DNA of 64,000 nt, from the NCBI GenBank assembly GCA_007136405.1, contig SLHA01000010.1:1-64000 (forward strand), in the 5' to 3' direction. Under the pieces are notes generated by a model. The model was not told the DNA's origin and searched no databases. It was given only the letters and a program-made list of their open reading frames with translations. How positions within the stretch are numbered: position 1 is the first letter of the stretch; every line of letters begins with the position of its first letter. The position numbers and the translations under genes are program-made. This DNA comes from Candidatus Latescibacterota bacterium (lineage in GTDB: Bacteria; Latescibacterota; UBA2968; UBA8231). Below, one piece after another: positions 43,659-59,628 of this stretch.

Positions 43659-44912
43659 CTACACCAGCGTTCCCCCGGCGTCAAAGGTCAGTTCCTGCGG
43701 ATCTTCCAACCGGGTCAGGTTCGGGTTGGTCGCTGCAGCTGCGTACAGGGGCTCCGAAAGCTGAATATGACCCAGTTCCAGGGTGTTCTTGATGCGGGCG
43801 ATGCGGGCCTGACGCGAATCTTCCAGGTGCAGTAGTCCGAGTGCCGCCTCCACCGCCTTCTGGTCCGTCTCCATGATCACCGGGATGTTGGCGCGGTTGA
43901 GGAAGGTGGTGGTGAACACGTTGGCGTAGGTTGCCTGGAAGTTGATGCGCTCGTAGAGCTTTCGGGTGATGATATCCGCCAGGCCGACGCCGTTGGCATT
44001 ACCGTGAGTCTTGTCGGTCAGATCCAGACAGATGATGCGCTGTACACCGGGTTCTTCCGGCTCCGGGACCCCCGGCAGCAGCATGCGCCCGATCACATTG
44101 GTGTCCATGCCGGTACCGGAGATGTCCTTGCCTATCCTTTCCACGATCAGCAAGTCTATGTCGCGGACCAGAAGACGGGCCATGGTATTCCGGGCTTCCT
44201 GCAGCAGCTCGGGTTCGCGCCATTCGAATTGGTCCGGGGTCAGCGCTTCTATGCGACCGAGCTGGTCATAGGCGTTCTCCAGCAGGGCCACACCCAGAAG
44301 CACCGGCGCCTGCTGCATGATGACACTGCCCCATGCTGGAATGAGACTGGCAAGGCCGTCTTTGTGCGAGTGGGCGATGGTGGCGCCCTTGTGGCTGCCC
44401 AGGCCGATGGTCATCATCTTCATCAACCCGCTTTCGAAGCGGCCGCGGAAGGACGTGTGCGGTTTGACGCGGTTGATGACGATGATGCCGTCGGATTCCA
44501 GCGCCAGGCGGTTGACCAGGACGGGTGTGCCATCATCCAGACTGCCCACCTGTCTGACGTCCATGGAGGCTTCCACGGGGCAACCCATGCTCTCCGGGGT
44601 GATATTGTAGCCGGCCAGGACCTGCTTCTGGCCGGCCGTCGTGGCCCCTCCGTGGCTGCCCATGGCTGGCAGGATGAAGGGTCTGCCGCCCGCCTGTAAT
44701 ACGGCATCGACCACGGTGCGCGTCACCTGAGTGATGTCCGCTATCCCGCGGCTGCCCGCGCACACGGCTATACGGGCACCGGGACGGACGCAGGCCGTGA
44801 TGCCCGCCTGTTCCAACTGGGCGCGTACGGCGGCCGGTACATCCTCTATGGTATGGGCCGGGAAGCGCTGACCCACGGTTACCATCCGAGGTAGCTGCAT
44901 GGCAGTCCCCAT
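43659..44912 (-). CDS. LarA/DUF2088-like (lactate racemase N-terminal domain-like) protein
   Basis: RPGARIAVCAGSRGIADI, PAMGSHGGATTAGQKQVLAGYNI, VNRVKPHTSFRGRFESGLMKMMTIGLGSHKGA. Confidence 0.7.
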   Translation of the reverse strand: MGTAMQLPRMVTVGQRFPAHTIEDVPAAVRAQLEQAGITACVRPGARIAVCAGSRGIADITQVTRTVVDAVLQAGGRPFILPAMGSHGGATTAGQKQVLAGYNITPESMGCPVEASMDVRQVGSLDDGTPVLVNRLALESDGIIVINRVKPHTSFRGRFESGLMKMMTIGLGSHKGATIAHSHKDGLASLIPAWGSVIMQQAPVLLGVALLENAYDQLGRIEALTPDQFEWREPELLQEARNTMARLLVRDIDLLIVERIGKDISGTGMDTNVIGRMLLPGVPEPEEPGVQRIICLDLTDKTHGNANGVGLADIITRKLYERINFQATYANVFTTTFLNRANIPVIMETDQKAVEAALGLLHLEDSRQARIARIKNTLELGHIQLSEPLYAAAATNPNLTRLEDPQELTFDAGGTLV

Positions 44913-45048
44913 TTTGCGTTTACCTGCCTTGAGCGGTGCTCCGCGCGGCGCTGCTGTCCGGCGATCTGCCGCCGGTTGAGCTGCGGGAACAGCGCCGCGC
45001 CAGACTGCCGGCCCGCGGCAAGGGCCGGCACGACAGGTGCAGTCCGTC

Positions 45049-46242
45049 TCAGGCTACGAAGATGGACCGGTTGGTGATACCGCAGGTGTGGCCCTGGCGC
45101 TGGAAACCGCCCATGAACTGGGCCGTGCGCGAACAAGGAGCCACGCCTTCATAGTAGGCATTGTAGGCGGTATTGAAGGGGCCGATACCCGCGCGCCCGG
45201 ATTCCGAGCCGTCGGCAGCCACGATATAGGCGTTGTTGAAGACGCCGTCTTCCTTGAGCCCCCGTCCTCCAGCCTCCTTGACGCGCGTGTCGATGGTCTG
45301 CAGCAGCGTGCCTGCGTCCGTGCCGCCCACGCCGCTGACCATGGCTTCACCGATGCCGTTGTACCGGAGCGCGGTCCAGGTGCTGAAGCCATCTTCCAGT
45401 TGTCCGGAACGAACGATCTCCACGTCTCCCGATACCACCCGGGGTTGCGGTTCCACGATGCCGTCCAGGTTGGGTATCCGCGAGACCGGATAGATCACGC
45501 CGGCGGGACGGTGTTCGCCGAAATAGGCTTCGAACACCTTGCGGACCGTTTCCATCCGTTCCCACGTCTGTTCAGGCGCGTCGTCCACGGCCACGAGGAT
45601 CTCCATCCACACGGTCTGCTTGCGGAAGTCCACTCCCTCGGCGGCGAACTTCCGGGCATATTGTTCTTCCAGAACGAACTCCATCTCTTTGGCCAGATCC
45701 GGTCCCAGCGTGGTGATCGTCTGGTCGCCCTGGCGGTGCATGACCGAGGCGCCGCTGGGTTGATGATCCGTCCAGGTGCCGTATTCGATTTTACCGCTGC
45801 CGATACTGGCCCCTTTGATGGCCTTGATCTGCACCTCGAAGAGGGCCTTGGGATCCGGATACCCCGCGGGATGCGTGAAACGCGCCATACGGTTGGACCG
45901 CAGCGGTCCACCCGTGCAGGCTTCGATCATGGGGCCGTATACACTGTTGAACGCGTTCTTGCGTTCATCGCAAGGTTCGCGGTCAGGAGAGGGTGTGGTC
46001 CACAGAACATCCGTCTTGTACACGTCCGACCAGCGAGCCTGTCCCAGCGCCAGAGACTGCTGGAGGTTCAGAATGGTGCCGAACCACTGAGAGCCGACAT
46101 CAGCGACGAACTGGGTGCCGACATTGCCGCTGGGTTCGATCAGGCGCGCGACGCTGCCATCCTTGCCGGCCAGAATGACCTCTGTGGTCTGACAGAAAAC
46201 CGCTCCTGGATTGTGGCGTACGATACTAACCTGTGTCATCAT
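45049..46242 (-). CDS. Uncharacterised 397-aa protein (weak Rid-family-like segment)
   Basis: Long ORF with coherent composition; FVADVGSQWFGTILNLQQSLALGQARWSDVYKTDVLW vaguely Rid-like; family not recognised. Confidence 0.55.
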   Translation of the reverse strand: MMTQVSIVRHNPGAVFCQTTEVILAGKDGSVARLIEPSGNVGTQFVADVGSQWFGTILNLQQSLALGQARWSDVYKTDVLWTTPSPDREPCDERKNAFNSVYGPMIEACTGGPLRSNRMARFTHPAGYPDPKALFEVQIKAIKGASIGSGKIEYGTWTDHQPSGASVMHRQGDQTITTLGPDLAKEMEFVLEEQYARKFAAEGVDFRKQTVWMEILVAVDDAPEQTWERMETVRKVFEAYFGEHRPAGVIYPVSRIPNLDGIVEPQPRVVSGDVEIVRSGQLEDGFSTWTALRYNGIGEAMVSGVGGTDAGTLLQTIDTRVKEAGGRGLKEDGVFNNAYIVAADGSESGRAGIGPFNTAYNAYYEGVAPCSRTAQFMGGFQRQGHTCGITNRSIFVA

Positions 46243-46371: not shown

Positions 46372-46920
46372 TCAAACGCCTCCACCCGCCCCGTGCCGGC
46401 GGTTGCGGAACAACTGCTCCCAGGCATCCACTTCCTCCGGTGCCAGCGTCAGCTCCGGGTCCAGTTCCGGCGGCGGCGCCGGAACCGTTGACTGTGAGCG
46501 CCGTGGGGCCTCCTCCAGTTCCTGGGCGAACTGCGGTGCGGTTGTGGAGGCAATTTTGTGCTGCCGGGCAAAGCGCCGAATCTCACGATCCGAGGTGATC
46601 ACCCGCAGATAGCGTGCCCCATGCCGGCCCTGAACGAAGCGCTTGATCAGGTCGTCCGCCGTCTCTGGAGCGCGAGCAAAACGGATGTATACCCTTTCGC
46701 TGCTGGCGTCCTGCGCTGGTTGAATGTCCCGCGTGCCGTCATAGAAGACGCTGACGCTGACCCCGGTACGCCGGACATAACGGCGCAGGGAACGCTCCAG
46801 GGCCCGGCGTGCCGCGAGCAGGCTGCTCTCCTCATGCTGCCGCAGCACCGGATCCGCCTTGATCAGGTTGTATCCGTCTATGAGCAGGTGCTCCTGATGC
46901 TCTTCAGCGCAGTTGCTCAC
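46372..46920 (-). CDS. NYN/PIN-like (YacP-type) nuclease-fold protein
   Basis: HLLIDGYNLIKADP, VFYDGTRD, ETADDLIKRFV, YLRVITSDREIRRFARQHK. Confidence 0.8.
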   Translation of the reverse strand: MSNCAEEHQEHLLIDGYNLIKADPVLRQHEESSLLAARRALERSLRRYVRRTGVSVSVFYDGTRDIQPAQDASSERVYIRFARAPETADDLIKRFVQGRHGARYLRVITSDREIRRFARQHKIASTTAPQFAQELEEAPRRSQSTVPAPPPELDPELTLAPEEVDAWEQLFRNRRHGAGGGV

Positions 46921-46931
46921 GGCGATCGGTC

Positions 46932-48785
46932 TCAGCAGGAAAGCTGGATGCCGTTGCTGTCCAGTTGGTACGCCACGACGCCGCTTTTGGCGAATGATGC
47001 TTTCTGGCGCAGCCGGCTGAGCCGCGCGCGCAGCTCCTCACCGCATCCGTCGCGGGCGATGAGCAGGGCGAACCCGCCGCCGCCGGCGCCGGTGATCAGG
47101 CCGCCTTCACTGACTTCCGTAAAATCCTCGCTTTCGAACAGCAGCTGCAGGCTGGGGGTGGTGGCATCCGGGTCCAGTATGCAACGTAACTGCCAGTACC
47201 GTGTGGCCAGCTTGCCGAGAGCGGCGTAGTCTCCCTCCTTCAGCGCCTGAACCATGCCGGAGTGGATGTCCATGGATTCGCGGATGGCGGGATAACGGGC
47301 CGGATCACGCGAGAGGTAGGCGTCCAGAACCACGTTGAGGCCGCGGGTGGCGGCGCGTGCGATGCCGGTGTCGAACAGCACCACCCGATCCGTGAAGGTG
47401 GCTTCGTTCACCGTGGTCAGGTAGTCCCGCTCCGGCGCGGGCAGACCGTCCGTTGGCGCCGCGTAAAAATCCTTGATGGCCGATGGACCTCCGCATGCAC
47501 CGCGGGCATCCTGCCAGCCGCTGTTCAACCCGATGCTCTGCTCCAGCAGCAGGCTCTGGTCATACAGCTCCGGGTATTCCCGCTCCGCAGTGGAATACGG
47601 ATGCCGGTACAGCCGGTACAGCGCCTTGAGGATGACTGCGGCCAGAATGCTGCTGGTTCCCAGGCCGGACCCCTGCTGCACCTTGCTTTCCGTGGCGATC
47701 TCCAGCCCGCCCCCACCGGTGAACGCGGCGATGTCGCGAACCACGTCCGCCGAGTTGTCGCGCACGATACCGGTGTGCACCAATGCCTGTTTGATCAGGC
47801 GCAGAGCCTCGTCTCCGCCGCGGCGGTAGGCGAAGAACAACTCGCTCTGGGTGCCGGCATCGCCGCGATTGGTGGCTTCGAAGTCCGCCTTGAAGTCCAT
47901 GGACAGGGAGCGGAGCAGCAGCTTGGGCTCCGCGAGCCGCCGTGCCGTCAGGCGCAGCGGTGGCACGGCGCAGCTCTCGCCCTGCATCTGCAGGTCTATA
48001 CCCGCGTTCAGCGTATGCGCTCCCTGCTCCTTACTGCGCAGGTGGTTGTCCGACGCATTGGCACTGGAGATGCCCAGGCGCAGCGGGGCCTGAACGACGA
48101 AGTGTCTGCCGTAGTCCTCTTCATGCATCTGCGGTGTGGTGGACGGCGCCCCGCTCAGGTCCGCCAGGTTGCGGCGCAGATCGATGCGCTGCAGCTGGTT
48201 GATGCGGGCCTCGTAGGCGGCGGCCAGGGCCTCGATGTTCTTCTGTTCCTTGAGTGCGGTGATACGGTCTCCGTCGATGCAGCACGGTGGCGGCGTGCGT
48301 CTCTTCCAGACACTGGGCGTCTGGGCCAGGGTGGTGTAGATATCCTGCATGATCCGGGCGACGCGCATGCCGCGCAGACGGCGCGGTGAGCCTGTCAAAC
48401 CTTCCAGATAGGTGTTCAGAGCCTTGAGGACGGCAAAGAGCGTCTTGGGGGCATGGTCAGGGAGATACCGCAGCAGCTGGGTGTGGCTGACGTCGGTCAG
48501 ACCGTCTACCAGGTCCACCATGAGCTGTGGCAGCTCCTTCCCTACGGCGCTGCCCATGAGCTTGGCCCAGGCATCTGCCCCCAGGCGCTGAAACAGATGG
48601 TCCAGCGCTTCCGGCGTACGTTGGGAGGCGATGAGCGTCGGTTGAAAGGCCAGGCTGCGCAGGAAGCTCCGCCTTTGGTCCATCTGGCTCTGGCCCGCCC
48701 GGACCCGATCCATGAAGCTGTCGATGAGGTGGGTTATTTCCGGCAGCTCTTCAGCGCGGTCGAGTCTGTCGAGGAGTTCTCTCAT
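46932..48785 (-). CDS. GHMP kinase superfamily protein, L-fucokinase-like, with ~200-aa N-terminal extension
   Basis: APLRLGISSANASDNH, VQQGSGLGTSSILAAVILKAL (motif 2), GLNSGWQDARGACGGPSAIK, LITGAGGGGFALLI (motif 3); ORF stays open to 48857, start uncertain. Confidence 0.8.
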   Translation of the reverse strand: MRELLDRLDRAEELPEITHLIDSFMDRVRAGQSQMDQRRSFLRSLAFQPTLIASQRTPEALDHLFQRLGADAWAKLMGSAVGKELPQLMVDLVDGLTDVSHTQLLRYLPDHAPKTLFAVLKALNTYLEGLTGSPRRLRGMRVARIMQDIYTTLAQTPSVWKRRTPPPCCIDGDRITALKEQKNIEALAAAYEARINQLQRIDLRRNLADLSGAPSTTPQMHEEDYGRHFVVQAPLRLGISSANASDNHLRSKEQGAHTLNAGIDLQMQGESCAVPPLRLTARRLAEPKLLLRSLSMDFKADFEATNRGDAGTQSELFFAYRRGGDEALRLIKQALVHTGIVRDNSADVVRDIAAFTGGGGLEIATESKVQQGSGLGTSSILAAVILKALYRLYRHPYSTAEREYPELYDQSLLLEQSIGLNSGWQDARGACGGPSAIKDFYAAPTDGLPAPERDYLTTVNEATFTDRVVLFDTGIARAATRGLNVVLDAYLSRDPARYPAIRESMDIHSGMVQALKEGDYAALGKLATRYWQLRCILDPDATTPSLQLLFESEDFTEVSEGGLITGAGGGGFALLIARDGCGEELRARLSRLRQKASFAKSGVVAYQLDSNGIQLSC

Positions 48786-48909
48786 GGGGAGCTTTCTCAC
48801 CGTTGGCGGGGACGGGACCTGCCTGCCTGGCCCGCCCGTCTGTTGCATTGGCGTCAAGTTCCCACTTGAGCCGCTTGTACAGGTCTGGACGGTCTGAGGC
48901 GAAGCCTCG

Positions 48910-49047
48910 CTAGGAAATAGCGCCGCAGCCTTTGAAAATAGCCTCGATCTGCTCGACGGACAAGAGAGCCGGCTCCGGAGGCCGATGCCGACTGGGGTAT
49001 GACCACGGCCAGGTCGGGGTTCCGGTATCCCGGCGCACTAGGAGCAT
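48910..49047 (-). CDS. Putative 45-codon small ORF overlapping the end of the ATP-grasp-like gene
   Basis: ATG overlaps upstream stop by 10 nt (ATGCTCCTAG; alternative GTG in TAGTG); MLLVRRDTGTPTWPWSYPSRHRPPEPALLSVEQIEAIFKGCGAIS. Confidence 0.35.
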   Translation of the reverse strand: MLLVRRDTGTPTWPWSYPSRHRPPEPALLSVEQIEAIFKGCGAIS

Positions 49048-50573
49048 CCCGGCGCGGAGACGGATCCGGCCAGGCGGGACAGTGTCCTCCACAGAGGGGC
49101 GCCGATTCCTGCGGTGTCCTCGTTCAGCAGATTGGCATGGAGCAGTCCGGCGGGACGCGGGTTGACGTCCAGAACGCTGCAGCAAGGCCCCTGGCCCTCC
49201 TGGTCGAACTTGAGATCCACCCCTGCCAGCGTTAGGGGGCCGATGGCGCTGACGGCGCGTTCGGCCATCCTGGCTGCCTGAGCGAGCTGTGCTGGTGACC
49301 AGGGCAGCGGCGGGGCGCCAGGATCGAGCAGATCGTGCAGATAGCGGCCTTGCAGCCAGCGGGTGGGCGCCGCCTGCCCTCCGGCTTCTACCGAGGTGAC
49401 CGGATTGTCCCTGGAGGCCGCCAGCAGCAGACAGGCACTGGTGGCGCGGTGCGCCTGGCCGTCCAGACACACGTTGATGCGAAGATCCCAGGCGAGCGGG
49501 CCATCATCGCCGGCGAGACCCAGCAGGCCGACCCGGGGGCGCAGGATGGCGTCTCCGCTTTCGGCCAGGTGGCGCCAGGCTGTCAGCAGGGCCGGCACGC
49601 AGTCTTCGTCGGCCGCGATCCAGGTGACGCCGCGGCCTTCGGTGCCATGACGCGGTTGCACGAACCAGCCGCCCGGAGCGGGGCTGGTACGCTCCAGGAG
49701 CAGGCGCGACTGGGTCTCCATGGCCGCCGCCGGCGTGGCGGCAGGCAGCAACTCGGTTACCGGCGTGCGAACGTCCTGATCGCGCCAGCGTTGCCAGCAT
49801 GTCCACTTGTCGTCCGCCAGGGCAGACAGCCTCGCCGGATTCACGTACGGTATTCCGGCGGCGTCGAGGCGGCTCCCCAGTTCGGCGTGGTCTGGGGGCG
49901 CATGGGCGATGACCAGGGCTGCCTGGGGTCGGCGGGGTTCGGGCAGGGTGCCTTCGATAAAGACATCGAGGCCGGCATCGTAGTGGATGGCTTGCAGGAT
50001 GCGGCCCCGGCCGTCCAGCCAGGAGCCATGGATGCCCAGCAGTTCCGGCGCGGCCTGCTGGCGCACTTCCAGCCCGTAGACATAGGCATCCGTACAGAGT
50101 GGATACAGCTCGTGGGTAATGGCCAGCGGCTGGTCGAAACATACGGCCACCCACAGCGCGCTGGCCGCGGCGGGAAGGGGTTGCGGCTGGTCCGGCGGAG
50201 CGGTGAGCAGGGGGGGCGCCGCGGCGTTGATGAGGAGACGCTCGAGAGCCAGGAGCACGACCCGCTCGAGGTATTCTGGCGCAGCGAAGCCGGCAGACAC
50301 CCGGTCCGCCGGCAGACAGCCGGCCGCCTGCAGGTTCCGCAACGTGCCGGGCAGCTCGCTTCGGGCCGCGGTCCCGGCATGACGCAGCAGGGTCTCCAGG
50401 GCCGCGGCCCGGTGATCGCCGCGTGTCTGCCGGACGGCCTCCACTACGGCAGGGGCGGCCGTGCCTACACGGTCGGCCACCGCAGCGGCCAGGTACTGAC
50501 TTACCGCGGCCGGCGCGTACCGTGTGCGACGGCCCAGTTCGGCGCGAACCCGCTCCAGCAGTTCGATGCGCAT
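49038..50573 (-). CDS. ATP-grasp-fold protein of unknown function
   Basis: GGWFVQPRHGTEGRGVTWI, LAWDLRINVCLDGQAHRATSACLL, LTLAGVDLKFD...SVLDVNPRPAGLLHANLL; start taken at MRIELLERV (ORF extends to 50621). Confidence 0.7.
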   Translation of the reverse strand: MRIELLERVRAELGRRTRYAPAAVSQYLAAAVADRVGTAAPAVVEAVRQTRGDHRAAALETLLRHAGTAARSELPGTLRNLQAAGCLPADRVSAGFAAPEYLERVVLLALERLLINAAAPPLLTAPPDQPQPLPAAASALWVAVCFDQPLAITHELYPLCTDAYVYGLEVRQQAAPELLGIHGSWLDGRGRILQAIHYDAGLDVFIEGTLPEPRRPQAALVIAHAPPDHAELGSRLDAAGIPYVNPARLSALADDKWTCWQRWRDQDVRTPVTELLPAATPAAAMETQSRLLLERTSPAPGGWFVQPRHGTEGRGVTWIAADEDCVPALLTAWRHLAESGDAILRPRVGLLGLAGDDGPLAWDLRINVCLDGQAHRATSACLLLAASRDNPVTSVEAGGQAAPTRWLQGRYLHDLLDPGAPPLPWSPAQLAQAARMAERAVSAIGPLTLAGVDLKFDQEGQGPCCSVLDVNPRPAGLLHANLLNEDTAGIGAPLWRTLSRLAGSVSAPGCS

Positions 50574-50638
50574 GACAGGCAGGTCAAGCCGCTTGCCAGG
50601 GACACCACCGGCCTCTGGCAAGCGGCCAACGGGACGTC

Positions 50639-53600
50639 TCAGGCACGCACGGCCTGCAGGTACTGCTCGCCGGCGATGACGAAGTTACGCAATACGACGC
50701 GGTCGCTCTGACCCACCCGGTCGTGGTCGAAGGCACGGCCCTGTTGCTGGCTGGCCAGTTGTTCGAGGGCCTCCTCGCGCAGATTGAACCGATCCCACAG
50801 ACCGATGCCGACATTGGGCTCCAGGTGGATGAATTCCCAACCCGTGATGTCTGCCGGAGCCCGGCCGTGCTCATCTTGCAGGATGGGCACGGACCCGATG
50901 CGCCGGCCCGCTTCGTCGTAGATCGGTTCGATATCCACCAGGCGGCCCGGCCGCGAGAACACGGGACTGGCCAGATAATCCAGCATCAGGTACGGTGCCC
51001 AGGCGTACGACACCCCGCGGGCATCGGTGCCGATATCACGCCCCCGTTGCTGGCGGAACTGTTCCTCGTACTGGGCCGCAAAGGCGGTCATCGCCTGCAT
51101 CACCTTCGGTACTTCGGCTTCCAGACCCGGCCGGATCTGGTCCCGGTACTGTTCCTGCACGAATTCGTCCAGGAGTTTCTCCAGAGTACCGCCGCGACCG
51201 ACGTTGGTCGCCACCTGCAGGCTGGTGAGGGTGATGGGGAAGGCCGCGTCGTACGGCTGGTCCGGATGCGCCGACGACGCCACGATGCGCAGCGAGCCAT
51301 AGATCTGCGACCGCGGCAGCCGGTCCCGCTGCACCGGTGTGTTCCATTCCAGCACCTGGCGCTCGACGAAGCGTTCCATGAACTCCGGTGTGGTCCAGAA
51401 TTCCGGTGACGTGAGCACCGCCGTCTGGATCACCACGTTCTGCCGGCGGGCGACGTCATAAAGAAAGTCCACGGCGGCGCTCACCGCTTCCGGATCGACG
51501 CGGCCGGCCTCGTCCTGCAGGTCGAACACCTTGAGGTTGCGTGCTCCCGATTCCGCGGCTCCCTTGATCAGGACGATCGGATGCTCCGCGCCAAAGGCCT
51601 CCAGACCGCGGAAATCCTCGTTCGGCACGCCTGTGGTCATCAGTTCCCTGATTTCGGCCGGGGACTTGCCGGCGCCGTACTCCCGGCGCCAGTCCATTTC
51701 CGGCGGCAGGCAAACGCCGAATTCCGGGCGGAAGATGCTTGGATACAGCGACTTGTCGTACGTGATGTCGGAAAATACGAGCGACTGGACCGTGGCCGGG
51801 AGCCCCAGGTCCTCGGTCTGTCCGGACTCGTATATCGGCAATCCGTGGAACGGGATCAGGGCGCCCACCGGGATGGGACGGGTGAAACGGGCCGCAATAC
51901 GGATGCCCTTGGGCGAGAGTGCACCGCGTTCACTGGCCGCGTCGGCCTCCGCTGCCGCCGCGGTCTGGTCCAGGCCACGATGCTGTTGCAGGGCGGCGAT
52001 GTACGTGTCGCGGCTGATATAGAAGTGCGCGTCCTCGATGACCAGGAGGTCGCGCTCGGCGCCCTCCACCTGCGTGGCGTATCCGTGCCGGGTAATCAGC
52101 AGGTTGGCGCCCCGGTGGCCATCCTGACGCACGGCCTGGTCGAGCGTGGGGCCTTCACGCAGCGCCCGCGACACGTGGGTTCGGCCTACCGGATACAGGA
52201 AGACGACATTGACCCGTTTGTCCGCTTCGATCAGGTCCGGATCGAAGTCATGGAAGACCGGCGGTGTGGCGAAACCGTCGCTGTGCATGAACGACAACTC
52301 GCGCAGCTGGTTGTAGGCACGCCAGCGTTTCTCGTCCAGCGATTCGCCGCCGGCACCGATTCCGGGGGTCACGGCATCCTGGTCGATGCGGCCGAGCAGG
52401 GCGTCCACATCCTTTTCCGGCAGGGACCCGAGCTCGGTGCATCGCACGATGACGGTGCGGATGTACCGGTACAGCCAGTCGTGGTGCTGATTGGCCAGAG
52501 CGTATATCTCCGCCTCCGTGAGGTTGTCGAAGGCTGTGCCCCGGTCGAAGATCCACGGTCTGTATTCGTACCAGTGGTCGTTGATGGTCTCGGCGAAGAA
52601 ATCCGTGAGATTCTTGTAGAACAGGCGTTCGTCGATCTCCTCGGGATCCTCCAGGGCGAACTGCAACGTCTGCGCCAGCGCGAAGGTGACGTAGAACAGC
52701 TCCATGCCGCGGGTCGCGGCCTCCAGCTGATCCGGTGCCGCGGCCGCTTTCTCGGCCAGGCGCGCCAGCACGCCGATGTCCTCGTAGCCGCCGGCCAGCA
52801 CCTTCCAGTCCTCGAGAATGATCTCGCGACCGGTATACACCTGAGCCACGCTTTCCCGGAAGGCTGTCAGAGCGTCGCCGTCGTAGTGTTCGGTGCCAAG
52901 AGCCTCCAGCGTCCGGCGGGTGCAGCCGATCAACTGGCCGAAGAGATGATTGATGCTGGTCCGGTCTTCCGTTGCCGTGGCGGCCGTGGCGTCGAATTGA
53001 CGGATCTGCTCCAGCAGGTCCTCCATGTGCTGCGACGCCTGGTCCAGGCACGGCGCCGCGGAAGCCGAGGCGAATGCCTTCATGGCCTCCTGGAAACCCG
53101 CCTCGCGATCCGACATGGCCCGGGCCTTCTCCGCCCGCACACGCAGGGCGCGGCGCCGTTCCAGCGCTTCCACGGCCGCGACTTCCACGGCCTTGCTGGA
53201 ACTCTCGACCAGCTTCTGCTGGGTGAAACGGGCCGAATCAGGTTCGTAGGCCGGGCGCACCAGGGCGTCCAGAATCTGCTCGTTCTCTGCCGGGCTGAAG
53301 GCGGCTACATCCGCTTCCGGTGCGGTGGCGGCTGCGGCGATACGTTGCACGCCGGCGGCAAAGCGTTCGAGCAGGGCATCGATGCGCTGACGCGTCTCAC
53401 CGAGAAGCACGAAGACGCCTCCCAGGCCGGCGATCCAGGCTCCGGCATCCAGGCGTGACAACGGCAGTCCCGCGGCGATCCTCACCCGGGCCTGGCTGAC
53501 GAAGGCATCCCGCTGGCGCCATTTCTTGAAGCGACGCAGCTTCTGTTCCTGCCGCAGGGCCTTGCCCGCCTCGTCGTCGTCGGTGAGCTGGCGCTGGATC

Positions 53601-56600
53601 TCGGCATAGGTCGTCTGCGCCGCGGCGATGGCCTTGTTCTGATCCCGCGATCCGGCTTCAGCTACGGCGATAACCGCGTCCAGTATGCGCTGGCCGCGGT
53701 TGCGCCAGACCTGCATCTCCTCCTCCAGGCGAGTGACGATGTGTTCGCCCAGACCGATGCCGGTGTACGTGCCCCGGCGGCCGATCTTCTCGCAGGCGGC
53801 GAAGAAGGCCTGGACGTCGAAGTCCGTCAGGGCCCGGGGTTCGCGCCCGGCGCAGCCATCGGCGATGGCCAGCGCACTGTTGGGATTTCCCTGCCGCATC
53901 AGGGTGACCAGTTTGGGCATGTCCTGCAGCAGCTCGAGTAACTGCGGGAAGGGAATACCCGTATTGAGCACATCGATGCCCTGCACATCCGTTTCGTAGT
54001 CCCGTCCGGGACCGCGCAACTTGAGCACCAGGGCATGGATACCGCCGCCGACGCGCTCGACGAGTTCCTCGATCCGGGACTCGGGCAAGGGCGCAATGCC
54101 GGCCCAGCGGCGCAAGTCTCCGCCATGGACCTCGGCGTTGGCGCGAATCTGGTCCTCCGTCAGGCCGTAATCACCCAGTTGCACCTGGACCTGGGTGGCG
54201 ATCTCGTCAAGACGGGAGTCGCTGGTGTAGAACAGCATGTCGTTGGTGGAGGACAGCGTCACGGAGGTCATGACCACGTCCGCCGGCGGCGCGTGTCCGG
54301 GGAAGGCCTGGCGCAGCCGGGCGACCGCTTCCGTGTCCGTGTCCGCCAGGTTGTAGGTCTGCAAGACCTGGCGGGCGGCGCGGTGTCCGATGGTGGAATC
54401 GCTGTCCGGATTGAATCCCTCGAGCATGAGGTGTACCAGGTTCTGCCCTTCTTCGTCGAAGGCGTAGTGCAGGTGTTCGCCGGTCTTGGCGAAGATCTCG
54501 AACAAGCGCATGCCCGTCGAGAAGCGGATGTCCTGCACCGGCTTGTATTCGGCGGACAGGGCGATCCGGGCCTGATGGTCCTGGGGACAGGCGGGATGCT
54601 TGTCGCGGGCCTGGCGCAGGCATTCGTAGATGGACCAGGCCTTGTAGAAGACCATGAAACGGTTCACCTGCTCGGCGTTGATGACCATTTTCTCCACGCT
54701 CCAGTCCGCTGCCAGATTGGCGATCAGGCGGGGACCAGATGCGGTTTCGTGCCAGGGACGCCCCAGATGCTCCAGGGCCCGGGCGATCTTGGTGATGTGG
54801 AAGACCAGCAGCTCACCCCGCAGACCGATGTACTCTTCGAGAACCTCGTACCGGAGCAGTTTGTCCGCGGCCCAGTGCTGCCAGTCGAATTCCGTGTTGA
54901 ACTCCTGCTTGCGCGCCAGGGCTTGCTTGGCCAGCTGCATGATGCCGTGGTGCAGGTGGTCCGGAACGCCCATCTGCCTGAGCTTGACATCATTGGTGAG
55001 CGACAGCACAAAGGCCAGGAAGAGCCCGTCCTTGGGGACGCAGTAACCGCCGTATCCCTCACCGGCGGGAGGGACATAGCGGTCCCCGCGCAGGTTCATC
55101 TGGTCTCCCATGTCCTGGGCATCGCCCTCCAGGACCGCGTTGCACAACAGGCCGAGCGCGTTGGAGCCGGCGAAGTGCGTGACGGCCAGGCCGTTCTCCG
55201 AGGTCTTCTGGATTTCCGCATAAGCCAGGGCGGGACGTTCTTCGACGCCGCCCTCGTTGACCAGGCTGTAGAATTCGAACCCGGCCTGGGCGGAGGCGGC
55301 GTCGGCGCCGCCGACCCACTGACGCCACTTGACCACAGAATCCCGCTCGCGGTGGCCCAGATTGACCCGGCTGGGGGTATACAGCAGGTTGTACCGCTTG
55401 TTGCCGCCGGTGGCCTGGTAGTAATAATGGGGATCGCTGCATTCGGCGTTGAGCTGGTGGCGTGCCACCACCGCCTTGCGGGCCGTGGAGGTCAGCGTCT
55501 GCGAATACATGCGCAGGAAGGCCCGCTCACGAGCCTCCATGTCCAGGTGCGGTTTTTCGGCGGACAGTTCCCGGAAGACCAGGCGGCGCGCCTGACTGCG
55601 CATGATGCTGGCCATCTCATCGCGGTAGTCCGGCTCGCTTTCGGCCACGACCCGGCGGGCTTGCTCCACGTCCAGCCCCTGACGGCTGTCCATCACCTCC
55701 TCCACCCGCTGCTCGAAGGCACGCCCGTTGTTTTCCGCCACCAGCGGCACGGCAGCGGTCATCAATTCGTCCCGGTGGTCGTCCAGGTATTGCTCGACGC
55801 GGCGGGGGTCGCGTGCCGGGGCCGTGTCCAGGGTGGCCTCCGGGTCTTCGGCGCATTCCAGCAGCGTACCGAGCAGCGCCACCTGTTCGGCGACGGGGCG
55901 GTAACTGCCGATGACGATGCTTACGGCCACCGGCGCCGGCACTTTCTGCTCGGCCATGACCTCCTCGACGACCACGTCCATGCCCAGATCCGCGATCACC
56001 TTGCGGCCAATCTCGTACATGCGCTGCCGGTAACGGCCGATCTCCTCGTCCACCTCCTGGTCCAGCCCACGGGCCCGGATGACGTTGAACAAGGCCATCT
56101 CCTCTTCGATCCAGGACTGCACATAGCCTTCCGTCATGCCGGCGGATTCGGTGGTGAGGATGTGCAGCGACGAAACAGGGCGGGTGCGCTGCAAGGCGAC
56201 AGGCTCGTACCGGGCCGCGGCCCGTGCGAGGGCCTGCGGTTGATCATCGAAGACTTTCTCCAGCGCGGTGGTGATGCGGGTTCGACCGCTGGCCGCCTCC
56301 AGCACCTGTCCCACCAGGTTGTCCGGAGCATCCCGGTGCGTCTCGCACAGCACCCGGCGCAGCGCCACGCGCCGCGGCACCGACTCCTGTTCGACCAGGC
56401 GGTGGATGGCTTCGATCAACGCGTCCTCGCTGGCTTCGATCAGCGCCGCCAGGTGGCTGATCTCCGGATGCTGGCGCGGCATGTCCTGCAGGACCAGGCG
56501 TGCGGCCTCGTCCGGTGTGACCGTCGGGTCCTCGGCGCAGATGTCGTCCACGGCGCGGGCGAGCCGGCGGTCCGATTCGGTGATCAGGATCCTGGCCAGT

Positions 56601-58510
56601 CCGACGCGCTCGGAGGCCATGACCTCGTCCAGATTCTGAGCCCAGAACGGAGCGTGCAGCCGGAAGAACGCTTCCATGGCTTCCTGATCGACTTCGGTCT
56701 GTATCTGATCTACCTGAGTGAGCTGGCCGCCGACTTCCACTTCCCGGCGGATGAGTCGCTCCTTGATGAACAGAGGGATGGCCTCCACCCAGTCGTTGAC
56801 CTTGATCACCCAGTGCGTGTCGGTTTCGCGGCCGTTTACCTCGATCCGGCCGGCACCGGGGGTGTTGTAGATATAGTCCCCGCCCTGGCGCAGCAGGTCG
56901 CGCAGATCCTCCTCCTTGCCGGTGTGCACTTCGCGGAAGGCATTGGCATTGGCCAGGTTGATGGTTTCGCTGGGATGCAGCCGCTGCAGCTGGAGCACAT
57001 ATGCCGCCGGAGACTTGTCACAGGATTCGAGTTCGCGGCGACAACGGGCGGACAGATCGAAGAGTTTGTCGATCGCCTGGCCGGCATTCTGCATGCGTTC
57101 CCGCGCCATGTCGATGGCGCCGCGCGACAGGAGACGACGGGAGGCGTTGTCCGCTTCGTCGAGGATTTTCTGCGCTGATTCCGACTGGTGTCCGACCAGG
57201 CATTCGTCAAAGGCGTTGAGCGCGCCGACCAGGCGGGCGTACGGCGTGCGTTTCTGCTGCTGCACGAGATGCAGCAGGCTGGTGGCTGCGGCGTGCAGAT
57301 CCGTGTTGTGGCGACTGGCGCGTTCGATCTGGCGGGCTACACGCGCCAGCCGGCTCTTGTCGTCGACGAATTTGGCGGTGGACAGCAGATTGGCCTGGTT
57401 GCCGAAGGCCCTGGACAGGCGCCCGGAGACCAGGCGGATGTCGTTTTCGTATGCCCAGCCGGAGATGCGTTGGATGTTCCTGCCTTCAGCCCGGTAATCG
57501 AAATGGCGCGAGATGGTAGCGTTGACCTCAGCGCGCCATTCGTCCAGATCCTCGGCTTCGCTGTTCAGCAGACGGCCGACCTCGTCCTGGGGGTAGGGGG
57601 CGTCGATGCGATCCTGCATGCGTATCCAGGTGACCCATTTGTCGCGCCATTTCAGCGTGTTCTCCACCTGCTCGAAGACGCGGTTCGCATAGGCCAACGG
57701 CGATTCACCCGAACGGGGCGCCGTCAGGCTGGAGGCCTCCGGAGCGACCTCGCGTATTTTCTCACTGACGCCCCGTCGCAACGAGGTACCGGTGTCCGCA
57801 TAGCGCATCTGGTCTATGGCCAGACCGGCCTGGAACAGCGTTTCCGTGGAGATCGCCGCCAGCTCCGTGATGCCCACTCCGTCCTGCGTCTCGGCCAGCC
57901 GGGCGTCGTAGCGGTTGGTCACGGCCATGCCGAGGATGTTGCCGCAATCCACCGGGGCGGTGCGCAGGAACTGCTGCAACTGCTCGCGCTGCAGACTGGT
58001 GAGCAGTGCATACATGTCGAAGACGCGATGGATGGCGGCGCGCTGGGTGACCTTGGGATTGAGCATGGAGAGGGTGCCCAGCAGGACCATGCCGGCAAAA
58101 TGCGCCGAGGCCTCGGCCGGATCCTGCGGCGCCCAGGTGGCGTCCAGCTGCAATACCGGGCTGGCGCCCTTGCGGGGTGCCGGGTAGAGGCGAGCGACGC
58201 GATCGTTGCTTTCCACAAAATTCACGCGGATGCTGCCGCGGTGCGACGTGGCGTCACGCAGGACCGCCGTCAGCAACGGGTGGGTGGAGCTGGCTTCGGT
58301 GAAGGCCTGGTATCCTGTCGCGAACACGGCCGCCGTGGCCTGTACCGCGTCATTGGCTCGGCGCGGCAGTTCGAAGCGGCAGTGCTTGCGCGTCAGTTTG
58401 AGCTTGCCCTCGGCGAGCGTCTTGCCGGGCTGACGCAACGCTATCTGGGAGTTCTCTCCCCCGGCGTCCAGGTCCGGCATATGGATGGGAAGGCAGTGAT
58501 GATCCGCCAT
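50639..58510 (-). CDS. Giant (~2,623 aa) uncharacterised protein with an ATP-grasp-like C-terminal segment
   Basis: Single uninterrupted frame; start MADHHCLPIHMPD preceded by GAGGTAA RBS; C-terminal HPIVLIKGAAESGARNLKVFD...FMERFVERQVLEWNTP...YGSLRIVASSA...TNVGRGGTLEKLLDEFV is ATP-grasp-like. Confidence 0.85.
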   Translation of the reverse strand: MADHHCLPIHMPDLDAGGENSQIALRQPGKTLAEGKLKLTRKHCRFELPRRANDAVQATAAVFATGYQAFTEASSTHPLLTAVLRDATSHRGSIRVNFVESNDRVARLYPAPRKGASPVLQLDATWAPQDPAEASAHFAGMVLLGTLSMLNPKVTQRAAIHRVFDMYALLTSLQREQLQQFLRTAPVDCGNILGMAVTNRYDARLAETQDGVGITELAAISTETLFQAGLAIDQMRYADTGTSLRRGVSEKIREVAPEASSLTAPRSGESPLAYANRVFEQVENTLKWRDKWVTWIRMQDRIDAPYPQDEVGRLLNSEAEDLDEWRAEVNATISRHFDYRAEGRNIQRISGWAYENDIRLVSGRLSRAFGNQANLLSTAKFVDDKSRLARVARQIERASRHNTDLHAAATSLLHLVQQQKRTPYARLVGALNAFDECLVGHQSESAQKILDEADNASRRLLSRGAIDMARERMQNAGQAIDKLFDLSARCRRELESCDKSPAAYVLQLQRLHPSETINLANANAFREVHTGKEEDLRDLLRQGGDYIYNTPGAGRIEVNGRETDTHWVIKVNDWVEAIPLFIKERLIRREVEVGGQLTQVDQIQTEVDQEAMEAFFRLHAPFWAQNLDEVMASERVGLARILITESDRRLARAVDDICAEDPTVTPDEAARLVLQDMPRQHPEISHLAALIEASEDALIEAIHRLVEQESVPRRVALRRVLCETHRDAPDNLVGQVLEAASGRTRITTALEKVFDDQPQALARAAARYEPVALQRTRPVSSLHILTTESAGMTEGYVQSWIEEEMALFNVIRARGLDQEVDEEIGRYRQRMYEIGRKVIADLGMDVVVEEVMAEQKVPAPVAVSIVIGSYRPVAEQVALLGTLLECAEDPEATLDTAPARDPRRVEQYLDDHRDELMTAAVPLVAENNGRAFEQRVEEVMDSRQGLDVEQARRVVAESEPDYRDEMASIMRSQARRLVFRELSAEKPHLDMEARERAFLRMYSQTLTSTARKAVVARHQLNAECSDPHYYYQATGGNKRYNLLYTPSRVNLGHRERDSVVKWRQWVGGADAASAQAGFEFYSLVNEGGVEERPALAYAEIQKTSENGLAVTHFAGSNALGLLCNAVLEGDAQDMGDQMNLRGDRYVPPAGEGYGGYCVPKDGLFLAFVLSLTNDVKLRQMGVPDHLHHGIMQLAKQALARKQEFNTEFDWQHWAADKLLRYEVLEEYIGLRGELLVFHITKIARALEHLGRPWHETASGPRLIANLAADWSVEKMVINAEQVNRFMVFYKAWSIYECLRQARDKHPACPQDHQARIALSAEYKPVQDIRFSTGMRLFEIFAKTGEHLHYAFDEEGQNLVHLMLEGFNPDSDSTIGHRAARQVLQTYNLADTDTEAVARLRQAFPGHAPPADVVMTSVTLSSTNDMLFYTSDSRLDEIATQVQVQLGDYGLTEDQIRANAEVHGGDLRRWAGIAPLPESRIEELVERVGGGIHALVLKLRGPGRDYETDVQGIDVLNTGIPFPQLLELLQDMPKLVTLMRQGNPNSALAIADGCAGREPRALTDFDVQAFFAACEKIGRRGTYTGIGLGEHIVTRLEEEMQVWRNRGQRILDAVIAVAEAGSRDQNKAIAAAQTTYAEIQRQLTDDDEAGKALRQEQKLRRFKKWRQRDAFVSQARVRIAAGLPLSRLDAGAWIAGLGGVFVLLGETRQRIDALLERFAAGVQRIAAAATAPEADVAAFSPAENEQILDALVRPAYEPDSARFTQQKLVESSSKAVEVAAVEALERRRALRVRAEKARAMSDREAGFQEAMKAFASASAAPCLDQASQHMEDLLEQIRQFDATAATATEDRTSINHLFGQLIGCTRRTLEALGTEHYDGDALTAFRESVAQVYTGREIILEDWKVLAGGYEDIGVLARLAEKAAAAPDQLEAATRGMELFYVTFALAQTLQFALEDPEEIDERLFYKNLTDFFAETINDHWYEYRPWIFDRGTAFDNLTEAEIYALANQHHDWLYRYIRTVIVRCTELGSLPEKDVDALLGRIDQDAVTPGIGAGGESLDEKRWRAYNQLRELSFMHSDGFATPPVFHDFDPDLIEADKRVNVVFLYPVGRTHVSRALREGPTLDQAVRQDGHRGANLLITRHGYATQVEGAERDLLVIEDAHFYISRDTYIAALQQHRGLDQTAAAAEADAASERGALSPKGIRIAARFTRPIPVGALIPFHGLPIYESGQTEDLGLPATVQSLVFSDITYDKSLYPSIFRPEFGVCLPPEMDWRREYGAGKSPAEIRELMTTGVPNEDFRGLEAFGAEHPIVLIKGAAESGARNLKVFDLQDEAGRVDPEAVSAAVDFLYDVARRQNVVIQTAVLTSPEFWTTPEFMERFVERQVLEWNTPVQRDRLPRSQIYGSLRIVASSAHPDQPYDAAFPITLTSLQVATNVGRGGTLEKLLDEFVQEQYRDQIRPGLEAEVPKVMQAMTAFAAQYEEQFRQQRGRDIGTDARGVSYAWAPYLMLDYLASPVFSRPGRLVDIEPIYDEAGRRIGSVPILQDEHGRAPADITGWEFIHLEPNVGIGLWDRFNLREEALEQLASQQQGRAFDHDRVGQSDRVVLRNFVIAGEQYLQAVRA

Positions 58511-58803
58511 GGAGTTACCTCGCTGTTTGGAGATGAGCCTGTGGCTGGCACGATGGGCGGGCCCAGGCTGTTGTCCGGTATTGGTGTCCTGTGTTTGCTG
58601 TGCCGTACATGATCCAGCGCGTCCGAGTGGCGGCTTGCCAGACCGGACCGGAGGATATATCTGCGGATACTCGAGTATGGGCAATATACGGAGCCAGCCC
58701 AACAGAGGCTATCCCCGAAGGAACGGATCCTTGCGCTATCCGCGCATGGGAGGTGCCGGCGAACGAGAGGCGCAGGGCAGCGGAAACCGGCGCCGCGCCG
58801 GCA

Positions 58804-59628
58804 TCACCGGAACGACTTGCGCCAGGTGCGGCCGCCGGAACGCCGGTAGTCGGACGGGGCGATGCCTACTTGTTCCTTGAACAGAGTACTGAAATGGCTG
58901 AAGGACTGGTAACCCACGCTCAGGCTGATCTGGGTGATCGACAGCGTGCTTTCCAGCAGCAGCTTCTTGCTGTAGTCCAGGCGCATCCCGGTAAGGACCT
59001 GGTTCAGCGTCTGGTGCCGTACCTGACGAAACAGCCGGGCCAGATGCGCCGGTGACAGGTTGACCACCCGGGCCAGCCCGGCGCGTGTGAGTGGCTGGCT
59101 CAGGTTGTTGCGCATGTAACTCTCCACCCGCTCGACGATCTCGCGCTGGTAGGCGGCATTGACCGAGGGCGGGCCGAGCGTGCCGGCGGGGGCCGCCGGG
59201 ATGGCTGCGCGCCGCAGGCCGATGAGGATCCTGGTGAGCAGGATGCCAATCAGGTCGTCGGCGTTGCTGTCAGCAGGAAGCCGGATCTCGGAAACCAGGG
59301 CGTGCAGATCCGGCTGCAACTCCAGGGGCGTAGGCATCACCCGGTCGATCAGGGCGTCGAGGTCCAGCCGGGTGGCGCTGAAATGGGCCCACAGATAACC
59401 CGGGGCCCGGTCCACCGAGCGCGGAGAACGGAGGGTTCCGGGCGGAATGAGGATGGACTCGTGGGATTTGAGCAGGTGCTGCTGCGGACCGACGATCATC
59501 TCCACCGCGCCGTACAGCACGCAGTACCATTGGTAGATCTCATGCCGGTGCGCACCGTAATGGTAGCGCGTTCCTTTCTCACGGTAGCCGACACGCTGGA
59601 GCTGAATGGGCAGGTCCGAATGAGGCAT
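58804..59628 (-). CDS. AraC-family transcriptional regulator with N-terminal cupin-like domain
   Basis: RYHYGAHRHEIYQWYCVLYG...ESILIPPGTLRSPRSV; HTH LTRAGLARVVNLSPAHLARLFRQ, ITQISLSVGYQSFSHFSTLFKEQVGIAPSDYRR. Confidence 0.93.
   Translation of the reverse strand: MPHSDLPIQLQRVGYREKGTRYHYGAHRHEIYQWYCVLYGAVEMIVGPQQHLLKSHESILIPPGTLRSPRSVDRAPGYLWAHFSATRLDLDALIDRVMPTPLELQPDLHALVSEIRLPADSNADDLIGILLTRILIGLRRAAIPAAPAGTLGPPSVNAAYQREIVERVESYMRNNLSQPLTRAGLARVVNLSPAHLARLFRQVRHQTLNQVLTGMRLDYSKKLLLESTLSITQISLSVGYQSFSHFSTLFKEQVGIAPSDYRRSGGRTWRKSFR

Follow-up and report, generated by a model that had tools for sequence, protein, structure and literature searches.

We identified a cassette made up of a giant multidomain protein, a separate ATP-grasp enzyme and a GHMP sugar kinase, which are found together in various phyla. 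It was found in a 64,000-nucleotide stretch of DNA from a Candidatus Latescibacterota bacterium (hereafter the window), which is part of a 4.29-Mb draft genome whose relatives are titled Gemmatimonadota, Latescibacterota and Handelsmanbacteria. We propose, with a probability of roughly 0.38 for the full chain set out below, that the cassette constitutes an undescribed system for sugar activation and ligation whose three parts cooperate. Taken separately, a sugar as the substrate is likely, and the chances that a ligation follows sugar activation are about even. All genes of the locus lie on the minus strand, with the transcription order AraC-type regulator, giant, ATP-grasp, GHMP kinase and NYN/YacP (Table 1).

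Table 1. Features of the cassette and its immediate surroundings, with positions in the window.
Feature	Position	Strand	Basis or remark
Giant multidomain protein, 2,623 aa	50639..58510	-	Identity of 29-62% to homologues across most of the length
Putative NDP-sugar-dehydrogenase-like catalytic core inside the giant, residues ~1035-1346	54473..55408	-	Invariant residues
Predicted C-terminal ATP-grasp module of the giant, residues ~2000-2623	50642..52513	-	AlphaFold2 and Foldseek, conserved residues
Separate putative ATP-grasp enzyme, 511 aa, RimK/Ddl/ATPgrasp_ST-like	49038..50573	-	Profiles, motifs, position 3' of the giant
Fucokinase-like putative GHMP sugar kinase, 617 aa	46932..48785	-	Motifs intact; match to PDB 9iip
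NYN_YacP-like putative RNase gene, peripheral	46372..46920	-	Pfam PF05991, E=2.9e-24
45-codon ORF, chance ORF outside the system	48910..49047	-	Homologue absent from every related locus
AraC-type regulator	58804..59628	-	Sits where relatives carry an HDOD-domain gene

The giant ORF ends at the stop at 50639 and its best start is the ATG at 58510, which has an AGGT motif upstream; the protein aligns with its homologues nearly end to end. The ATP-grasp gene begins 65 nt past the giant, the kinase start ATG at 48785 agrees with the starts of homologues, and the NYN/YacP gene starts at 46920, 11 nt beyond the kinase stop. Codon-position GC was gene-like for all four of these ORFs, which a previous annotation made from the letters of the window (the sequence-only reading) had placed at the same coordinates and on the same strand. 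The NYN/YacP gene follows the kinase in several genomes, all of the same family as the window, and since its conservation is confined to that family it would be at most a peripheral member of the cassette. LarA group 22 and the gene P0010 were likewise discarded as core parts, being conserved around the locus in the same family only. At 43659-46242 of the window, on the minus strand, a nickel-pincer isomerase of group 22 (NF052515, 524 bits) adjoins the 397-aa P0010, which has no family match and is 64-70% conserved in relatives; there, the neighbours of the pair are a sulfopyruvate-decarboxylase-like two-subunit enzyme, a FabI-like SDR and a DUF2064 protein, and the region is possibly a separate 2-hydroxyacid pathway.

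Homologues of the giant were detected in about 70 genomes of about 15 phylum-level groups including archaea, and within the phylum of the window in most genera of its own family and in two other families, over most of the length. The species-level genome collection yielded 73 giant loci, some of them cut by contig ends, in bacteria (Gemmatimonadota/Latescibacterota, Omnitrophota, Methylococcaceae, Myxococcota, Acidobacteriota, Armatimonadota, Sumerlaeota, Spirochaetota, Planctomycetota, Elusimicrobiota, Desantisbacteria and Aerophobetes) and in archaea (Bathyarchaeota and Thermoproteales). Because most of the genomes are metagenome-assembled, single taxon placements may be wrong, a doubt from which the three Methylococcaceae isolates Methylovulum miyakonense HT12, Methyloglobulus morosus KoM1 and Methylotetracoccus oryzae C50C1 are free. 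Relatives of the giant were found in neither viral contigs nor plasmids, and a viral or plasmid origin was therefore rejected.

The sequence-only reading had taken two ATP-grasp-like modules and a sugar kinase for parts of one undescribed cassette and had named homologues that never co-occur in other genomes as the outcome that would speak against it. The comparison came out clearly in favour. Among 23 genomes, the ATP-grasp gene was present in 17 of the 18 that bear the giant and in none of the five that lack it (Fisher p=1.8e-4, an optimistic value since these genomes are related). In the genome collection, 52 loci extend at least 1.2 kb beyond the giant and are thus informative; an ATP-grasp gene or domain lies directly 3' of the giant on the same strand in 41 of them and upstream on the opposite strand in two, while nine have neither arrangement, four of these coming from a group whose ATP-grasp and GHMP kinase genes sit as a pair on another contig. 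A GHMP kinase was found within about 5 kb of the giant in 25 loci. Hence the giant is usually accompanied by a second ATP-grasp and often by a sugar kinase. Furthermore, two uninterrupted ORFs of Omnitrophota, in loci L102 (5,344 aa) and L103 (5,707 aa), each combine the three components in a single protein; the GHMP domain scores 24.4 bits in L102 and 21.4 bits, just under the Pfam cut-off of 22.3, in L103. Conservation across phyla and these fusions rule out chance neighbours. The fused proteins carry extra domains, an aldose-1-epimerase in L102 and a NagB-like domain in L103, and the L102 kinase runs on in an overlapping frame, perhaps through a sequencing error. Both megaproteins (L102:5300-21334 and L103:959-18082) start with a hydrophobic signal-like stretch, which is odd for ATP-using enzymes.

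The window kinase can be assigned to the GHMP family: its GHMP N-terminal domain scores 37.4 bits, above the Pfam cut-off of 22.3, and the motifs QGSGLGTSS, GWQDARG and GAGGGGF are intact and conserved among homologues. It matches the fucokinase domain of PDB 9iip (E=6e-21), and with the fucokinase/FKP equivalog model it reaches 124.6 bits, through the kinase part only, against a cut-off of 721; as the guanylyltransferase part is absent and the score lies far under that cut-off, its substrate need not be fucose. The kinases beside the giant fall into three subfamilies, a fucokinase-like one in the window group, a galactokinase-like one in archaea, Armatimonadota, Sumerlaeota, Spirochaetota, Omnitrophota and Acidobacteriota, and a short heptokinase/mevalonate-kinase-like one in Methylococcaceae, which may be glucuronokinase-like. 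A ROK-family gene occupies the upstream place in locus L119, and similar genes lie near two other giants. These kinase subfamilies, together with other sugar enzymes in the neighbour slot, support a sugar substrate, as had been suggested from the window. In single lineages further sugar genes occur nearby: GalU beside the cassette in some methanotrophs, a glucuronyl C5-epimerase-like gene and the ROK gene. Radical SAM genes were also seen beside the cassette in loci L105 (6403-8239, with SPASM; an SDR occurs in the same locus), L127 (19137-20468) and L108 (14292-16124), and in two Latescibacterota (L041, 2563-7857; L042, 171-5465) it is adjoined by a fibronectin-type-III protein of 1,764 aa that bears a type IX-like sorting domain at its C-terminus.

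Both expected ATP-grasp modules were recovered, one at the C-terminus of the giant and one as the separate gene. The C-terminal half of the giant was modelled by AlphaFold2 with a pLDDT of 90.5 and a pTM of 0.83, and its best Foldseek matches were D-Ala-D-Ala and D-Ala-D-Lac ligases (E=4e-6); the predicted structure thus assigns this module a D-Ala-D-Ala-ligase-like ATP-grasp fold. The ligase relation was not found by a sequence profile search of the same half in the PDB. Invariant or nearly so in the module are K2316, ESGxR, R2384, R2408, D2511 and E2564-x-N2566. In the family of the separate enzyme, PF02655 was matched in 15 of 16 members (best E=2.3e-7) and ATPgrasp_ST (PF14397) in 13 of 16 (best E=1.4e-8); the window member reaches 17.9 bits with PF02655, under the cut-off of 23.2, and has no match to PF14397, and one relative scanned singly falls under the cut-off. 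The motifs of the separate enzyme comprise ADDK, a glycine-rich motif and (D/E)xNPRPAG. Profiles and the Lys/Glu/Asn motifs place the separate gene in the ATP-grasp superfamily.

Whether these modules ligate bears on a rival explanation, sugar salvage or catabolism, in which the kinase and the giant would handle sugars or uronates that stem from polysaccharide breakdown and the ATP-grasps would be phosphotransferases, as inositol-phosphate and glucan kinases are, and not ligases. ATP-grasp folds do include kinases, which also weighs against the ligation step of our own proposal, and in the Foldseek list the ligases are followed by Vip1/Asp1 kinases as the next ATP-grasp matches. Moreover, some neighbours are polysaccharide-degrading: a GH5 gene in L098, an acetyl-xylan-esterase-like and a C5-epimerase-like gene in L135, and a weakly pectate-lyase-like gene in L118. 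However, every one of the 34 fold matches with E below 0.001 is a D-Ala-D-Ala or D-Ala-D-Lac ligase, and the structures nearest to the separate enzyme are Ddl, RimK and cyanophycin synthetase. In addition, the Methylococcaceae are methanotrophs and unlikely to live on polysaccharides. We thus consider salvage rather unlikely. Modification of the cell envelope or of an exopolysaccharide, with the system supplying a surface glycan with an amidated uronate unit, would suit the matches to ATPgrasp_ST, the 'sugar-transfer associated ATP-grasp', as well as the GalU and UGDH-like parts, which fit nucleotide-sugar routes; yet the cassette neighbourhoods showed no conserved gene for a glycosyltransferase, flippase or polymerase, and this explanation appears unlikely.

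The giant consists of a mostly helical N-terminal part (residues ~1-780), a UGDH-like core (~1035-1345), a middle part (~1424-2000) and the ATP-grasp module (~2000-2623). The core, which the sequence-only reading had missed, matches PDB 3g79 and 4r16 with E=1e-12 when a profile from 59 sequences is used, over the region beyond the NAD domain of those enzymes. The only recurring Pfam family was PF00984, the central domain of UDP-glucose/GDP-mannose dehydrogenases, detected in 14 of 16 giants. The core carries the motifs YTPSRV, E-x2-K1102-x3-N1106, GYGGYC1157VPKD and YKP-x-QD-x-R, of which K1102, N1106, C1157 and K1160 are invariant in all 61-62 aligned giants of bacteria and archaea, with position 1161 being D in 38 and E in 23. 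A conserved GxGxxG NAD motif was not found outside the catalytic loop in the aligned giants, and residues 785-1040, the expected place of the NAD domain, are predicted to be helical. A complete NDP-sugar dehydrogenase was therefore rejected; with the whole-protein model TIGR03026 the giant scores 41.7 bits against a cut-off of 189.8. In a fold search with residues 240-1420 the dehydrogenases of the UDP-glucose/GDP-mannose family rank top, weakly (E=0.02); for the dehydrogenase-like part, the predicted fold resembles solved enzymes only weakly (target TM about 0.2) and the catalytic loop is of low confidence. To judge by its motifs and profile match, the core derives from an NDP-sugar dehydrogenase, with no recognisable NAD domain. 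The missing NAD-binding motif, the weak fold match and the very large helical regions would also suit a dead relic within a giant that acts as a scaffold or regulator around ATP-grasp ligases, but a relic would not be expected to keep the Lys, Asn, Cys and Asp/Glu of its active site invariant throughout bacteria and archaea, as is seen here, and we regard this reading as quite improbable.

The 45-codon ORF noted earlier is indeed present at 49047-48910, but it is not a gene: it has zero homologues in any related locus, the gap that holds it is short or absent elsewhere and ORFs of 40-60 aa abound in this GC-rich stretch, so it is best explained by chance, and a second small ORF at 49006-48854 was ruled out as well for lack of homologues. 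A RiPP-like product, as suggested from the window, or another peptide natural product, for which this ORF would be the precursor, is highly improbable: known systems offer examples of ATP-grasp ligases that modify RiPP precursors, but RiPP clusters contain a conserved precursor peptide gene, and neither a conserved small ORF nor a protease/transporter set was seen in the cassette neighbourhoods.

The genes of the cassette appear not to share one history in the window. The window giant shares 62% identity with that of genome G001, 49-57% with those of Omnitrophota and only about 39% with most of its own family, and in the tree it groups with Omnitrophota. The same pattern, weaker, was observed for the ATP-grasp (40% to G001, followed by best scores in Omnitrophota at 31%), whereas the GHMP kinase and the adjacent two-component regulators are 57-75% identical to those of the window's own family. 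Apparently, giant and ATP-grasp were swapped in together as an Omnitrophota-like block (49038-59628, the AraC-type gene counted in) beside the resident kinase, and the simplest reading is that these two genes move as one block. The AraC-type regulator perhaps arrived with them. Genus g7 lacks both the giant and the ATP-grasp and retains the kinase, also in two single-contig genomes; the fucokinase-like kinases of its loci L048, L049 and L050 are 62-64% identical to that of the window. In genome G013 the upstream HDOD gene and the kinase are immediate neighbours.

In the sugar-activation and ligation chain that we propose, the GHMP kinase would phosphorylate a free sugar or uronate at C1 to a sugar-1-phosphate, which a nucleotidyltransferase such as GalU, whose gene adjoins the cassette in some methanotrophs, could turn into an NDP-sugar. 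The dehydrogenase-derived pocket of the giant would bind the NDP-sugar or its acid and use Cys1157, Lys1102 and Asn1106 for covalent thiohemiacetal or thioester chemistry. Since no NAD-binding fold was found in the giant, either an unrecognised part of the protein would supply the redox cofactor or the pocket would have turned into an acyl-transfer site. The two ATP-grasp modules would convert carboxylates to acyl-phosphates and couple the sugar acid to an amine, and the expected product would be an amide-linked sugar-acid conjugate, soluble or serving as a glycan building block. Against the full chain stand the kinase without a giant in g7 and some Omnitrophota giants, L067 and L069 among them, without an ATP-grasp within 10 kb; in addition, the different kinase subfamilies may imply different substrates or loose coupling only. 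We consider it distinctly unlikely that the giant represents a novel kind of enzyme, with a dehydrogenase site that has lost its NAD domain and would serve as a covalent Cys-thioester acyl-transfer station loaded by ATP-grasps in cis and in trans and fed by the sugar kinase. If true, this would be a sugar-acid assembly machine of bacteria and archaea making a new class of sugar conjugate.

Pfam and NCBIfam searches of the giant returned partial, low-scoring matches only, with no family model beyond the dehydrogenase-domain fragment, and in the open-access literature (subscription papers and preprints excluded) we found no paper that combines these parts, the papers on giant proteins making no mention of these domains. 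The system thus appears categorically new in composition and built from known domain types. It presents a family of 2,600-residue putative enzymes with a strictly conserved active site in some 15 phylum-level groups, culturable methanotrophs included, and its partnership with an ATP-grasp and a sugar kinase, backed by the fusions, leads to the concrete prediction of a kinase-fed sugar ligation pathway.

Each part has a known counterpart. The window kinase has the GSGLGTSS, GWQD and GAGGGG motifs in common with the kinase domain of FKP (L-fucokinase/L-fucose-1-P guanylyltransferase); in contrast to FKP, it has no guanylyltransferase domain and carries an N-terminal extension of its own of about 230 residues. 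The sugar-transfer associated ATP-grasp PF14397 is weakly matched by the separate enzyme's family, whereas the window member lacks this match and glycosyltransferase neighbours were not seen at the cassette. D-Ala-D-Ala ligases resemble the giant's C-terminus by predicted fold and the separate enzyme by a weak profile match, but the giant's module has no sequence match to them and carries large insertions. From UDP-glucose/GDP-mannose dehydrogenases (3g79, 4r16) the giant differs in that no N-terminal NAD-binding Rossmann domain was detected, in the weak similarity of the predicted core fold and in that this core makes up about 300 of 2,623 residues; nevertheless, it shares with them the catalytic Lys-x3-Asn, the Cys in the GGxCxPK(D/E) loop and the YKPxxxDxR motif of their C-terminal part.
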